43,840 bases of DNA, taken from NCBI GenBank assembly GCA_004213885.1, contig SGYL01000002.1, positions 85,603-129,442 of the forward strand, in the 5' to 3' direction. Positions 29,291 through 39,031 of this stretch are shown one piece after another. The position numbers and the translations under genes were made by a program. This stretch comes from Alphaproteobacteria bacterium. GTDB taxonomy: Bacteria; Pseudomonadota; Alphaproteobacteria; Puniceispirillales; Marisalimonadaceae. The notes under the pieces are model-generated. The model saw only the letters and a list, made by a program, of their open reading frames with translations, made no database searches and was not told the origin of the DNA. Every line of letters begins with the position of its first letter. Position 1 is the first letter of the stretch.

Positions 29291-29986
29291 TTATTTAATC
29301 TTTTTCCATAATGGATCTGTCATTTCAGCTATAAAATTCTCATGCTGTTTTTTTTCATGATCAGATAAATTCATTAATTTTTCTCGAGGAACAGATAAAC
29401 TTACTTTTAAATTCTTTGTCTCTATATTGCTATTAAAATTAACCACCTTACTATCTGTTAGGTTAAACTTTTCCTGTTTTCCTGTTGTTAAATTTAAATA
29501 TACTTTAGATAGGAGAGTAGCATCTAACAAAGCTCCATGGAAATTTTGTCTTGTATTTTTTACATTTAGTTTTCTACATAAAGAATCTAAATTTACTGTT
29601 TGTCCAGGAAATTCTTTCTTAGCTATTTTAATTGTATCGATAACAGAATTTTTAATATTGCTAAAACCACAATTTTGTAATTCTTTATTAATAAAATTTG
29701 TATCGAACTCTGCATTGTGAATTATTATTATGTCATCTTTAATAAAATCTAGAAATTTTTTTGCAATTTCATTGAATGTGGGCTTTTCAATTAGAAACTC
29801 GTTAGATATCCCATGTACTTTTTGTGCAGATAAACTTATGTTCATTTCTGGATTAATGTATTCATGAAAATAATTTTGTGTTAGTACATTGTCTATTAAT
29901 TCAACAATGCCAATTTCTATTACTCTGTCATCAGAAAAATTTAAGCCTGTTGTTTCTGTATCAAGTATTAATTTTCGTTTTTCCAT
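29291..29986 (-). CDS. dnaQ: DNA polymerase III epsilon subunit (3'-5' exonuclease)
   Basis: This 231-residue DEDDh exonuclease proofreads for polymerase III. Asp9 and Glu11 are in LILDTETTGL, the third acidic residue in HNAEFDTNFI, and the His/Asp pair in FHGALLDATLLSKVY. The C-terminus (about 180-231) is the extension that contacts the alpha subunit. Its start overlaps coaE by 26 bp and its stop abuts secB. Proximity of dnaQ to the origin side is conserved in alphaproteobacteria. Confidence 0.95.
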   Translation of the reverse strand: MEKRKLILDTETTGLNFSDDRVIEIGIVELIDNVLTQNYFHEYINPEMNISLSAQKVHGISNEFLIEKPTFNEIAKKFLDFIKDDIIIIHNAEFDTNFINKELQNCGFSNIKNSVIDTIKIAKKEFPGQTVNLDSLCRKLNVKNTRQNFHGALLDATLLSKVYLNLTTGKQEKFNLTDSKVVNFNSNIETKNLKVSLSVPREKLMNLSDHEKKQHENFIAEMTDPLWKKIK

Positions 29987-30575
29987 TTTTTGATTTTAAC
30001 CTAATCAATATTTTTGTTAATAGTATGCATATCTTAATTAATATAAATAGCCTATTATTCGTATTAATTACTTGTGGTTTAAATTTTATTTTATCATCAT
30101 AACTTAATTGTGATGCCAATATTTTCTCAAAGAGTGTATCTGATATTTTGTCTCTAGTTAAAACTCTCTCCCTTTGAATTTTTGTGTTACAATGGGCTAG
30201 TAAAATTTTATCATATCTATTTTCTGTTTTAGTTTCGTATATTAAGGGTACATCATAAACTAATATATTTTTTTTATAGTTAACTGTTTCAAACATTTTT
30301 AATTCCATTTCTAAATAAGGGTATAATAATTTTTCTAGTTTTTTTTTTTCAATATTATTAGAAAAAATAATTTCTCTTAATTTAAGCTTATCAATATGAT
30401 CTTTTTTAATAATTAAAGGCCATATTTTCTTTAATTTTTGTTTGATCTCTTTTTTTCTTAATATTTTTTTTATTTCTCTATCAGCATCAAATACTGGTAT
30501 ATTAAATATAGCAAACATATTTGCTAGTGTTGTTTTTCCAGTACCTATTGATCCTGTTATTCCTATCTTATACAT
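29961..30575 (-). CDS. coaE: Dephospho-CoA kinase
   Basis: This 204-residue P-loop kinase carries out the last step of CoA synthesis. The Walker A loop GITGSIGTGKTT is at residues 4-15, and FDADREIKKIL (Asp for substrate) follows near 32. The middle shows LVYDVPLIYET, the usual family segment. The lysine-rich C-terminus overlaps the first 26 bp of dnaQ. An A11 tract encodes three consecutive lysines near residue 77. Immediately upstream is the origin-like region. The usual neighbours aroE, maf and ppsR between coaE and the origin are missing. Confidence 0.93.
   Translation of the reverse strand: MYKIGITGSIGTGKTTLANMFAIFNIPVFDADREIKKILRKKEIKQKLKKIWPLIIKKDHIDKLKLREIIFSNNIEKKKLEKLLYPYLEMELKMFETVNYKKNILVYDVPLIYETKTENRYDKILLAHCNTKIQRERVLTRDKISDTLFEKILASQLSYDDKIKFKPQVINTNNRLFILIKICILLTKILIRLKSKNGKTKINT
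30339..30349 (-). repeat. Homopolymeric A11 tract within coaE
   Basis: Eleven consecutive A residues on the coding strand encode Glu-Lys-Lys-Lys in coaE. The frame is open through it, but it is a slippage-prone site inside an essential gene. Confidence 0.9.
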
Positions 30576-30582
30576 AATAAAC

Positions 30583-30591
30583 TGTGAATAA
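30583..30591 (-). promoter_or_regulatory. DnaA box TTATTCACA
   Basis: Exact match to TTATNCACA on the minus strand, 7 bases upstream of the coaE start. DnaA bound here could also repress coaE. Confidence 0.75.
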
Positions 30592-30618
30592 ATATAGTAT
30601 TTTTACAATTTTCTTTTT

Positions 30619-30627
30619 TTATTCACA
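30619..30627 (+). promoter_or_regulatory. DnaA box TTATTCACA
   Basis: Exact match to TTATNCACA on the plus strand, inside the hemE-coaE gap. Confidence 0.75.
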
Positions 30628-30646
30628 ACCTATAAATCAATTTTTT

Positions 30647-30655
30647 TGTGTATAA
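30647..30655 (-). promoter_or_regulatory. DnaA box TTATACACA
   Basis: Exact match to TTATNCACA on the minus strand, facing the box at 30619-30627 across 19 bp. Confidence 0.75.
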
Positions 30656-30794
30656 AGTATATAACAAAATAAATTAATTAAATTTTTTCATTAAAAACAG
30701 TTACTTGTAAATTTTATGTTTGTTGATAAATAATAATAACTATTTATAAACAAATTTATGCAAACAACTACAACATAACTATTAATAAACATTT

Positions 30795-31808
30795 ATGATT
30801 AGTAAGTTAATAAGATTAAAAAATAATAGCGTAAAACCTAAGTGGTTTCTAAGACAATCTGGAAGACACATACCAGAGTATTTTTCAATTAGAAATAAAC
30901 ATAGAAGTTTTATTAATTTCTGTCTCAATGAAAGATCAATAATTGAAGCTACTATTTTACCGCTAAAATATTACAATATTGATGCCGCAATTTTATTCTC
31001 TGATATTTTATTATTACCTCATTTTTTAGGACAAAAAGTCTCATTTGAGAAAAAAATAGGTCCTGTATTAGAAGGAATTATTATAGATGATAAGTTCCTT
31101 AAAAAAGAGATTGATCTTAATGACTTTACACCTATTAAAAAGGCTATTTTTGAAATTAAAAAAACATTACCTCCATTAAAAGATCTTATAGGTTTTTGTG
31201 GTGCTCCTTGGACCCTAGCTTGTTATATGATAGAGGGTGGTAGTTCGAAAGACTTTGCCAAAACGAGAACTTTTTTATGGAACAATGAAAAAAGTTTTTT
31301 TAAACTGATTAACAAGTTAACTAAAAATTGTGCAGATTTTTTGGAGTATCAGTATTTAGCTGGTTGTACTGTCTTAATGATTTTTGACACATGGTCAAGT
31401 ATGATACCAGATAGATATTGGGTTAAGTTTGGAATTGAACCTACTAAATTGATAGTTGAAAGATTAAGAAAAAAAAATGTTAAATGTCCTATTATAGGGT
31501 TACCTTTTAAATCTGGGGAGATGTTAATTCAATATAGTTATGAAACTTTAGTTGATGTTGTATCAATTGACTGGAAAACAAATTTAAATTGGGCTTTAAA
31601 AAACATTAATGAAAATGTTATCACTCAAGGAAATTTAGACCCAGCAATACTCGCATCTGATAATTCATTATCTATAAAAAAAGAAGTATATAGAATATTA
31701 GATCTAACACAAAAAAAACGTCACATTTTTAACGTTGGTCATGGATTAACTCCTGAAGTTAAGATAAAAAATGTTAAATATGCAATTAAACTCATTGATG
31801 ATTATTAA
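30795..31808 (+). CDS. hemE: Uroporphyrinogen decarboxylase
   Basis: This 337-residue enzyme decarboxylates uroporphyrinogen III to coproporphyrinogen III in heme synthesis. The signature near residues 17-30 is KWFLRQSGRHIPEY (usually W-MRQAGRYLPEY), and IGFCGAPWTLACYMIEGGSS near 136 contains the family's second motif. DAAILFSDILLLPH keeps the catalytic Asp. The C-terminus FNVGHGLTPEV is conserved. The conservative changes at otherwise strict positions (QSGRHIP, ACYM) are typical of A+T-rich divergent lineages. It borders the origin and abuts hemJ directly. Confidence 0.96.
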   Translation: MISKLIRLKNNSVKPKWFLRQSGRHIPEYFSIRNKHRSFINFCLNERSIIEATILPLKYYNIDAAILFSDILLLPHFLGQKVSFEKKIGPVLEGIIIDDKFLKKEIDLNDFTPIKKAIFEIKKTLPPLKDLIGFCGAPWTLACYMIEGGSSKDFAKTRTFLWNNEKSFFKLINKLTKNCADFLEYQYLAGCTVLMIFDTWSSMIPDRYWVKFGIEPTKLIVERLRKKNVKCPIIGLPFKSGEMLIQYSYETLVDVVSIDWKTNLNWALKNINENVITQGNLDPAILASDNSLSIKKEVYRILDLTQKKRHIFNVGHGLTPEVKIKNVKYAIKLIDDY

Positions 31809-33540: not shown

Positions 33541-33556
33541 AGTTTCACGTGAAACA
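33541..33556. promoter_or_regulatory. parS centromere site overlapping the mnmE start codon
   Basis: The 14-bp core GTTTCACGTGAAAC at 33542-33555 is a perfect palindrome. The 16-bp AGTTTCACGTGAAACA differs from the parS consensus (TGTTTCACGTGAAACA) only at its first base. It lies about 2.75 kb from oriC and 4.6 kb before parB. The GTG start of mnmE is inside it, at bases 33549-33551. Confidence 0.93.
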
Positions 33557-36743: not shown

Positions 36744-37390
36744 TGAAGGAAAATTTTTCTAACTTAAAAAAACATATAAATGTTTCACATGAAACATTAG
36801 AAAAGCTAGCTATATATTTTGATCTTTTAAATATTTGGCAAAAAAAAATGAATTTAGTTAGTAAAAATTCTTTGGAAAATGCAGAAACACGACATTTTTT
36901 AGATTCTGGTCAATTATATATTTTCTGCAAAAATTTAAATGGTAACATAATTGATTTTGGAACTGGCGCTGGATTCCCGGGAGCGGTTCTATCAATTCTA
37001 GGTGCCTCACAAATTTTTTTAATAGAATCAAACCAGAAAAAATGTAATTTTTTAACAAAATTAAAAAAAGAGACCAATAGTAATTTCAACATTATTAATT
37101 CAAGAATTGAAAACTTAGATTTTTTAGAACCATCTTTAATTGTATCAAGGGCCTTAACATCCACAAAAAATTTACTACTTCTCTCTATTGATCATATGCT
37201 TAAATCAAAAAAAATAAAATCTAGGAAAGATGCTATAAAAAATCTTCCTAACCTATTGTTTTTAAAGGGAAAAACCTTTAAATATGAATTAAACGATATA
37301 CCTGAAAATCTAAAAATACAATTTCAAACTTTTCCCTCTATTACAAGTGCAGAAAGTAGAATTTTGTTGTATAGTAAAAATATTTTATGA
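36743..37390 (+). CDS. rsmG: 16S rRNA (guanine(527)-N7)-methyltransferase
   Basis: This 215-residue methyltransferase (GidB) methylates G527 in the 530 loop of 16S rRNA. The SAM-binding motif FGTGAGFPGAVLSIL is near 72 and IESNQKKCNFLTKL near 95. VSRALTS near 135 is the later family motif. It overlaps mnmG by one base and parA by four (ATGA). A near-consensus parS occupies codons 13-18 (N-V-S-H-E-T). Confidence 0.95.
   Translation: MKENFSNLKKHINVSHETLEKLAIYFDLLNIWQKKMNLVSKNSLENAETRHFLDSGQLYIFCKNLNGNIIDFGTGAGFPGAVLSILGASQIFLIESNQKKCNFLTKLKKETNSNFNIINSRIENLDFLEPSLIVSRALTSTKNLLLLSIDHMLKSKKIKSRKDAIKNLPNLLFLKGKTFKYELNDIPENLKIQFQTFPSITSAESRILLYSKNIL
36781..36796. promoter_or_regulatory. Second parS-like site, inside rsmG
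   Basis: TGTTTCACATGAAACA matches the 16-bp parS consensus at 15 of 16 positions, with a G to A change at position 9. It lies in codons for V-S-H-E-T. The core is no longer the CACGTG centre, so ParB affinity may be lower. Confidence 0.7.
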
Positions 37391-38175
37391 CTTTATTTAA
37401 CACTAATATTATTGCAATAGCTAATCAAAAAGGTGGTGTTGGAAAGACAACAACTGTCATTAACCTTGCTACTGCAATGGCTGCATGTAATAAAAAAGTC
37501 TTAATTATTGATTCAGATCCTCAAGGAAATGCAAGTACTGGTTTGGGTTTAGATAAAACAGTTCTTAAAAATAGTTTTTATGATTTAATTAGAGGTGATA
37601 TTTCGATTAATGAAGTAATTGTTAAAACTCAAATTCCTAATTTATTTATAATTCCTACTTCTATGGATTTAGCTGTAGTTGAACAAGAATTTGTTAATAT
37701 AGAAAAAAGAGAGGAAAGATTAAAAAAAGAAATTGAAAAACTTAATACACCTTTTGATTATATTTTGATTGATTGTCCACCATCCTTAGGTCTTTTAACT
37801 TTAAATGCATTAGTAGCATGTAAAAATTTGTTAGTACCTTTGCAGGTTGAATTTTATGCTTTAGAGGGTTTAACACAACTAATGGAAACAGTTAATCAAA
37901 TTAAAAATAATTATAACAATTTATTAACTTTACAAGGTATAGTTTTAACAATGTATGATAAAAGAAACAAGATATCTGAATTGGTAGCATGTGACGTCAA
38001 AAATTTTTTTAAAGAAAAGGTTTATAAAACTATTATTCCAAGAAATGTAAAAATATCTGAAGCTCCTAGCCATGGGATGCCAATTTTAATGTATGATATT
38101 TCATGTTCAGGTTCTCAAGCTTATGCATCGCTTGCAGCAGAAATAATTAATCAGGAGAACAAGTTAAATGGCTAA
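37387..38175 (+). CDS. parA: Chromosome partitioning ATPase ParA
   Basis: This 262-residue ParA has the deviant Walker A KGGVGKTTT in IIAIANQKGGVGKTTTVINL, then LIIDSDPQGNASTGLG and IDCPPSLGLLTLNAL. It drives segregation of ParB-parS complexes using a nucleoid-bound ATPase cycle. The ATG overlaps the rsmG stop as ATGA and its stop overlaps parB by 8 bp. Confidence 0.97.
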   Translation: MTLFNTNIIAIANQKGGVGKTTTVINLATAMAACNKKVLIIDSDPQGNASTGLGLDKTVLKNSFYDLIRGDISINEVIVKTQIPNLFIIPTSMDLAVVEQEFVNIEKREERLKKEIEKLNTPFDYILIDCPPSLGLLTLNALVACKNLLVPLQVEFYALEGLTQLMETVNQIKNNYNNLLTLQGIVLTMYDKRNKISELVACDVKNFFKEKVYKTIIPRNVKISEAPSHGMPILMYDISCSGSQAYASLAAEIINQENKLNG

Positions 38176-39031
38176 AATTAGTAAAAAAAAACCATTGGGA
38201 AGAGGATTATCAAGTTTATTGGGAGATAATATAAATGTTGATAATTTAACTAATCTAAATAAAAAAAACAATTTGAGTGTTGTACCAATTGATCACTTGT
38301 CAGCAGGATCGTGGCAGGTCCGAAAAATGTTTGATGAAACTGAACTACATAGCCTTTCACAATCTATAAAAAATAATGGAATATTTCAACCTATAGTTGT
38401 GGTTTCTGATAAAGAAGAGAAAGGTAAATACAAAATTGTAGCTGGAGAACGTCGTTGGAGAGCAGCACAATTAGCAAATATTCATGAAGTTCCAATTATT
38501 TTAAGAGATGATTTGTCATCAGATAAAATTGTAGAAATATCTTTACTAGAAAATTTAGAGAGATCCGACTTAAATCCTATAGAAGAGGCAAAAGGTTATG
38601 AAGATCTAGTGAATAAGTATAATTATACTCAAGAAAAAGTTGCTAAAATTTTCAGTAAGTCTAGACCTTACATAACTAATTTTTTAAGGTTACTTACATT
38701 ACCTGATGAAATTAAATCTTTTATTGTTGATGGAAAAATTTCCGTAGGCCATGCAAGAGCTATAATAAATAGTGATAATTCATTAGAATTAGCAAGAAAT
38801 ATAATTAAAAAAGGATTATCAGTTAGAGAAGTTGAAAAACTACTTAAAAAGCCTAAGAAATCTGAAAATACATCTGAGCTTCACAAATATTTAGATATTG
38901 AAAATGAATTATCTAGTAAAATTGGTCTTAAAACAAAGATTTTATTTAATAAAGAGAAAAAAAATGGATCTTTAATCATTAAATTTAAAAATTTAGATCA
39001 ATTAGAGTACATTATGAAAAAATTTAATTAG
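38168..39031 (+). CDS. parB: Chromosome partitioning protein ParB
   Basis: This 287-residue ParB starts with the GRGLSSLLGD motif (about 12-21) that binds ParA. The CTP-binding domain carries GERRWRAAQ near 98 and ENLERSDLNPIEEA near 129. A central helix-turn-helix (about 145-180, including FSKSRPYITNFLRLLTLP) binds parS. A short C-terminal dimerisation domain ends the protein. It is slightly short for the family. Its last 8 bp overlap the 3' end of convergent holA. Confidence 0.97.
   Translation: MAKISKKKPLGRGLSSLLGDNINVDNLTNLNKKNNLSVVPIDHLSAGSWQVRKMFDETELHSLSQSIKNNGIFQPIVVVSDKEEKGKYKIVAGERRWRAAQLANIHEVPIILRDDLSSDKIVEISLLENLERSDLNPIEEAKGYEDLVNKYNYTQEKVAKIFSKSRPYITNFLRLLTLPDEIKSFIVDGKISVGHARAIINSDNSLELARNIIKKGLSVREVEKLLKKPKKSENTSELHKYLDIENELSSKIGLKTKILFNKEKKNGSLIIKFKNLDQLEYIMKKFN

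Follow-up and report, generated by a model that had tools for sequence, protein, structure and literature searches.

A predicted hemE-type replication origin between coaE and hemE in a SAR116 alphaproteobacterium, with a probable deviant DnaA-trio tract

The gap between coaE and hemE described here is almost certainly a chromosomal replication origin (oriC) of the hemE type, since a switch in GC skew, a cluster of DnaA boxes, conservation within the gap and nearby parS-like sites and parAB genes agree. A sequence-only reading had proposed an oriC at this place, and the proposal is supported by the skew of related genomes, box conservation, parS/parAB and synteny, as a prediction of the in vivo start. 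In location and content this is probably an ordinary origin of its type, in which the boundary gene has changed and the unwinding tract is probably deviant. The finding locates the origin for a largely uncultivated ocean lineage, and provides an example of an origin that stays put while its boundary genes vanish.

The window, by which we mean the whole stretch of 43,840 bases that was analysed, lies on contig C9 of a draft genome (G000; 1,405,927 bases in 16 contigs, 84% complete). The host genome is that of a low-GC SAR116 alphaproteobacterium; all 13 named relatives from a hemE search belong to the SAR116 cluster of alphaproteobacteria, and a hemE query had no match among viral contigs. The genus, as used here, comprises G000-G012, and the hemE locus was obtained from 10 of these genomes. 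Family f1 comprises G000-G024, while f2, f3 and f4 are other families of the same order. Closed genomes of the order (G025, G030, G031 and G036) were used for the analysis of skew. A draw at the level of the class covered 57 genomes, 50 of them with a match; 30 loci were fetched and 29 analysed, the remaining one being dropped for want of an anchor motif. The class-level loci are hemE loci and count as candidate origin regions.

The gap, its flanking genes and the perfect DnaA boxes, placed in the genus alignment, are as follows:

30576-30794, no strand: oriC gap between coaE and hemE, 219 bp, 15% GC, aligned in 10 genus loci
29961-30575, minus strand: coaE, dephospho-CoA kinase (PF01121)
30795-31808, plus strand: hemE, uroporphyrinogen decarboxylase (PF01208)
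30583-30591, minus strand: perfect DnaA box TTATTCACA, separated from the coaE ATG by 7 bp
30619-30627, plus strand: perfect DnaA box TTATTCACA
30647-30655, minus strand: perfect DnaA box TTATACACA

The sequence-only reading had described the largest gene-free gap, flanked by diverging genes and nearly pure A/T, with three exact boxes within 73 bp, one of them 7 bases before coaE, and this description stands in all its parts. Between open reading frames of at least 75 aa (greedy choice), the next largest gaps measure 152 bp, at the window edge, and 107 bp; coaE and hemE point away from each other, and 85% A/T makes the wording on composition a fair one. The three boxes are the only perfect matches to TTATNCACA in the window. 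Their clustering in noncoding DNA is above chance: among 20,000 dinucleotide shuffles of the gap, none had three perfect boxes and 17 had two or more. When one mismatch is allowed, the window as a whole shows no enrichment of boxes (56 observed vs 76.6 expected). The draft genome holds 56 perfect boxes, compared with 71 matches to a reversed control pattern, and reading through the box list revealed no second trio of perfect boxes within 1 kb. ARAGORN found no tRNA in the window, and a comparison with Rfam gave no match at gathering scores. By duplex stability, the gap falls within the least stable 1% of C9, yet it is not the least stable stretch of that contig.

The position of the origin was addressed by GC skew, the check that the sequence-only reading had named and which came out in its favour. 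From each closed relative, 20 stretches of 20 kb were sampled and gene direction was corrected for via third codon positions. The corrected skew goes from minus to plus between the stretches flanking hemE in all four genomes (left/right: G036, -0.096/+0.056; G025, -0.076/+0.060; G031, -0.370/+0.328; G030, -0.085/+0.131), the raw, uncorrected value left of hemE in G036 being slightly positive (+0.009). Noisy samples occur far from hemE (G030 at 2.05 Mb, raw; G031 at 1.65-2.2 Mb; G025 at 2.25 and 2.6 Mb, corrected). In joined stretches of 50-60 kb, the cumulative minimum lies 506 (G036), 4,855 (G025), 6,667 (G031) and -366 bp (G030) from the start of hemE. The genome of the window is a draft, so its skew curve is limited to contig C9 rather than the whole genome. 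The cumulative minimum of this contig falls at 116,622, i.e. 225 bp inside hemE (start at 116,397), despite local rivals: a comparison of 13-kb flanks gives the top jump (0.175) at 114.3 kb and competing jumps of 0.142-0.145 at 13 and 33 kb. Skew in the window's own genome is supportive of an origin at hemE, not decisive, and single-contig skew was rejected as sole proof of an origin because it is too noisy.

In many other bacteria the origin is at dnaA, which in this genome would place it at ~55.3-55.7 kb of C9. The gene lies ~61 kb from the coaE/hemE gap, on the coaE side, with neighbours read by eye as rpsT and dnaN:

L046:13937-15313 (G000:C9): dnaA
L046:15314-15706: gap upstream of dnaA, 393 bp, 14% GC; its one perfect box is 17 bp from the dnaA-distal edge

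An origin at this site is scarcely credible. The gap upstream of dnaA contains the point of lowest duplex stability on C9 (at window sizes of 60, 100 and 200 bp), and the raw flank skew rises there from -0.097 on the left to 0.001 on the right; against this, it has one perfect box only, the raw skew at dnaA does not become clearly positive, and all 10-kb bins from 40 kb through the bin of the coaE/hemE gap are negative. Moreover, dnaA is ~77-127 kb from hemE in the closed relatives, and the stretches sampled on both of its sides have the same sign.

Partition elements are found past the hemE side of the gap:

33541-33556, no strand: parS-like AGTTTCACGTGAAACA, at the rho/mnmE junction (G000:C9:119143)
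36781-36796, no strand: parS-like TGTTTCACATGAAACA, inside the start of rsmG (G000:C9:122383)
37387-38175, plus strand: parA (AAA_31/CbiA matches)
38168-39031, plus strand: parB (ParB_N, HTH_ParB)

The two sites, 2.7 and 6.0 kb past the gap, are each one mismatch from TGTTTCACGTGAAACA, which we take to be the parS consensus. Both precede parA and parB, and the sites and genes together lie 2.7-8.2 kb from the gap. A looser parS pattern with one mismatch has two more sites in the genome, on contig C1, and these are further from TGTTTCACGTGAAACA; at up to 2 mismatches, the genome has 14 sites vs 5 for a reversed control. The skew switch at hemE in all four closed relatives, and the closeness of the parS-like sites and parAB, speak against a reading in which the clustered boxes titrate DnaA or control coaE or hemE and the origin is elsewhere. 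The box 7 bp before the coaE ATG would fit that reading, which we regard as very improbable. On the position of this box, DnaA may repress coaE, as a putative function in addition to that of the origin. The box at the coaE margin (30583-30591) is largely retained in the genus. One-mismatch boxes occur at the same margin in all four f3 loci, where ppsR is the neighbour; this would count against a coaE-specific role, as weak evidence only, because weak matches are common in A/T-rich DNA.

The gene order points to loss of boundary genes around an origin that has not moved. In G030, the order, assigned by similarity to genes of the window and, for maf and ppsR, by their family matches, is secB-dnaQ-coaE-maf-ppsR-[gap]-hemE-UPF0093-rho; that of the window is secB-dnaQ-coaE-[gap]-hemE-UPF0093-rho. 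The gene ppsR (PF03618), which we take to be equivalent to COG1806, is present in none of the 25 f1 genomes, six of which are at least 90% complete. It is present in 14 of 16 genomes of other families (missing in G035, 65% complete, and in G040, 96%), and the other families of the order retain it beside hemE. Two copies of maf are found in all 11 f2 and f4 genomes, and one copy in 23 of 25 f1 and in 3 of 5 f3 genomes; the single maf of the window's genome sits on a different contig from the gap. aroE (PF08501) is located away from the origin in this genome, and likewise in G030. Thus, coaE borders the origin because family f1 lost ppsR and the origin-linked maf. The observation of the sequence-only reading that ppsR, maf and aroE are missing beside coaE is borne out, dnaQ-like and secB genes coming next on that side, and so is its statement that the hemE neighbour fits the Caulobacter context, the origin lying directly upstream of hemE in both organisms.

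In the cited comparison, the Caulobacter crescentus Cori and the Rickettsia prowazekii ori are placed at the hemE/COG1806 boundary, with boxes in an A/T-rich gap (PMC1914354). The origin described here is similar in lying directly upstream of hemE (PF01208) and in having its DnaA boxes in an A/T-rich gap. It differs in that coaE, not COG1806/ppsR, forms the opposite boundary, ppsR and the origin-linked maf being gone, and in that the gap of the window has no CtrA consensus (TTAA-N7-TTAA), GANTC or IHF site by strict patterns; across the genus gaps, the CtrA pattern is seen in 1 of 10 and the strict IHF pattern in 0 of 10. For origins of Anaplasmataceae, the same source gives hemE with COG1253 replacing COG1806, by an inferred rearrangement (PMC1914354). 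Here, too, the gene opposite hemE has been replaced while hemE stays; unlike in Anaplasmataceae, loss of ppsR and maf left at the gap the gene that follows them in the G030 cluster, coaE. Among the matches listed in a literature search on SAR116 together with replication origin or DnaA box, none was on SAR116.

Conservation within the gap was scored for 187 9-mers in the alignment of the 10 genus loci. By this measure, the best-conserved part of the gap is a weak inverted pair of boxes together with a three-base tract beside hemE, which the sequence-only reading had missed, and not the three perfect boxes:

30721-30729, minus strand: left arm of the core inverted pair, weak box TTATCAACA, first among the 9-mers of the gap for conservation in the genus (rank 1/187; written TGTTGATAA at 30721)
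30744-30752, plus strand: right arm of the core inverted pair, weak box TTATAAACA (rank 5/187)
30753-30764, plus strand: spacer of 12 nt between core box and tract
30765-30776, plus strand: period-3 tract CAA CTA CAA CAT, DnaA-trio-like (bottom strand 3'-GTT GAT GTT GTA-5')

The perfect boxes rank 25, 25 and 34 of 187 and vary among the 10 loci, with all three found only in the window and none in L005 and L008. Eight of the 10 genus loci show the inverted pair, 23 bp apart and with at most one mismatch per box; in L007 and L010 the left arm is retained and the right arm is more altered. At position 6, the core pair of the window does not match the box consensus. Among other f1 loci, 10 of 13 have an inverted pair, 23-25 bp apart (e.g. 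TTATCCACA/TTATTCACA), and 10 of 13 have C at position 6 in the place of the right box. TAA repeats inside the pair (30730-30739) were considered as DnaA-trios and rejected, being not conserved in the genus.

One alternative is that this right half of the gap (30721-30752) serves mainly as a promoter or operator of hemE and not as an unwinding core. A sigma-70-like arrangement can be read there, with TTGATA (30723-30728), a 16-nt spacer and TATAAA (30745-30750), the hexamers being chosen by eye, and the element is free of indels in all 10 genus loci. However, a promoter scan gave 4 promoter-like sites vs 6.2 expected by chance and omits this pair of hexamers, as the scan requires a T ending the second one. 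The recurrence of the inverted pair in the other f1 loci, in the same spacing class, mostly with C at position 6 of the boxes and 11-13 nt before the tract, likewise argues against it. We therefore consider the promoter alternative unlikely. In Caulobacter, a hemE promoter lies inside the origin, such that promoter and core roles could coexist.

The tract itself was examined with spacers of 6-18 nt and boxes of up to 4 mismatches allowed. It is present in 8 of 10 genus loci, at a spacer of 12 nt in all 8, and in all 13 other f1 loci at 11-13 nt, i.e. in 21 of 23 f1 loci overall. For f2/f4 the spacer is 6-13 nt and for f3 it is 7 nt (2 of 4 loci), and the assignment of a box to the tract is weak in these families; judged from these loci, the box-to-tract geometry is firm within f1 only. 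L005 and L007 were scored as lacking the tract and by eye show the same register with one C changed to T (CAT TTA CAA CAA and CTA TTA CTA CAA). Within the final 130 bp upstream of hemE, loci with four or more C spaced three bases apart were counted and compared with the number expected from shuffles: genus, 7 of 10 vs 0.06; other f1 loci, 13 of 13 vs 0.09; f3, 2 of 4 vs 0.00; f2/f4, 7 of 10 vs 1.49. These expectations overstate the evidence since the loci are related and hence non-independent. CTA units (bottom strand 3'-GAT-5') stand at the place of the tract in L012, L014, L015 and L016, three to five in each, and in L010 of the genus, where three follow a box with 3 mismatches. The units of the genus have T in the middle in 10 of 32 cases and A in 21 of 32, so most are without a middle adenine on the bottom strand.

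The BUS search, in the cited description, uses a box with up to 2 mismatches, a spacer of up to 16 nt (peak at 10-13) and a minimum of three 3'-NAN-5' units (PMC8287927). A perfect trio is given as 5'-CTA-3' on the complementary strand, with which the orientation of the window's tract agrees (PMC8235120). Compared with a BUS, the likeness lies in the box (TTATAAACA, 2 mismatches to TTATCCACA), the 12-nt spacer to the conserved tract, inside the range of 0-16 nt and at the published peak, and a trinucleotide tract on the expected strand. The difference lies in the units, only 10 of 32 in the genus having the expected middle base; after the core box, CAA CTA CAA CAT has one 3'-NAN-5' trio instead of at least three in succession. 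The strict rule has 3 formal hits elsewhere in the gap. One adjoins the tract (TTATGCAAA, then CTA TTA ATA), and 2 of 10 genus loci show a hit at that place. These formal hits do not discriminate, because a hit on either strand also arises in 502 of 1,000 shuffled gaps; with about half of the shuffles passing, the published rule was rejected as a detector in this A/T-rich gap. By the strict rule, then, the conserved tract is no BUS; by its anatomy it may have a BUS-like function, and it is probably a deviant DnaA-trio. Deviant trios without the middle adenine are suspected by the BUS authors (PMC8287927), and the natural series from canonical to deviant trios in these loci makes that suspicion testable.

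Alternatively, the tract could be unrelated to DnaA, as leader, translation or promoter sequence of hemE, and its likeness to trios a matter of chance. This is less likely than not. In its favour, only one of the four units in the window is canonical 3'-GAT-5', and the three consecutive units of the published rule are missing after the core box. Such chance likeness would leave unaccounted for the spacer of 11-13 nt in every tract-bearing f1 locus out of a search range of 6-18 nt, the canonical units at the same place in L012, L014, L015 and L016, and an excess in the direction of hemE across the class. In the class draw, 14 of 29 loci had, in the direction of hemE, a box with up to 2 mismatches followed after 8-16 nt by at least 4 CNN units, compared with 4 loci on the opposite strand and 0.55 expected; when the box was limited to one mismatch, these figures were 7, 0 and 0.04. 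Some class tracts are plain G/C-rich runs (e.g. L157, L163, L181 and L182), and the null is insufficient for a class-wide claim.

Based on these features, the reading of an oriC with the stated core and unwinding geometry is, as a whole and weighted to the oriC, highly probable; the core and geometry taken by themselves we favour mildly. In this scheme, the three perfect boxes towards coaE would be bound by DnaA and act as distal anchors, and ATP-DnaA would accumulate on the weak inverted pair at 30721-30752. From there, ATP-DnaA would extend onto the bottom strand of the C-phased tract at 30765-30776, and the A/T-rich duplex beside hemE would open and allow helicase loading.

The weak boxes of the genus have a partial counterpart in DnaA. 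The recognition helix encoded in the window's genome reads DHATVIHG, and all 8 DnaA proteins of the genus have DHAT with G five residues after that A. Other DnaA proteins have DHTT in 12 of 13 cases (the exception, G018, has DHAT) and A at the later position in 13 of 13. We take the changes in the genus to be T435A and A440G in E. coli numbering. From these alignments, the helix change appears associated with the weak core boxes, in part only, because f3 has weak boxes together with DHTT. A clean coupled change of DnaA and core boxes was rejected, since TTATNAACA boxes occur near hemE in f3 loci with DHTT, and box position 6 is A in L014 and L018, whose DnaA likewise has DHTT. For E. coli DnaA, T435M is described as defective in box binding in the cited text (PMC5742627).

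As a tentative generalization, which we rate somewhat below even, hemE-adjacent alphaproteobacterial origins may carry a deviant trio tract whose phase is kept by a G in first position (3'-GNN-5') and not by a middle adenine. Family f1 would then record a change from canonical to mixed GAT/GTT/GTA units 11-13 nt from the core box, accompanied in the genus by weak TTATNAACA boxes and by the change of the DnaA helix from DHTT...A to DHAT...G. The sole match in a literature search joining 'DnaA-trio' and 'Alphaproteobacteria' was PMC5043019, by its title on Epsilonproteobacteria.

Finally, some observations concern GANTC. The motif is rarer in the window than shuffles predict (69 vs 115), and none of the 10 genus loci has a copy in the final 235 bp ahead of hemE. 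GcrA and a RAMA-domain (CcrM-like) protein are encoded in the genome (G000:C1:102424-102801 and G000:C12:64893-65159).
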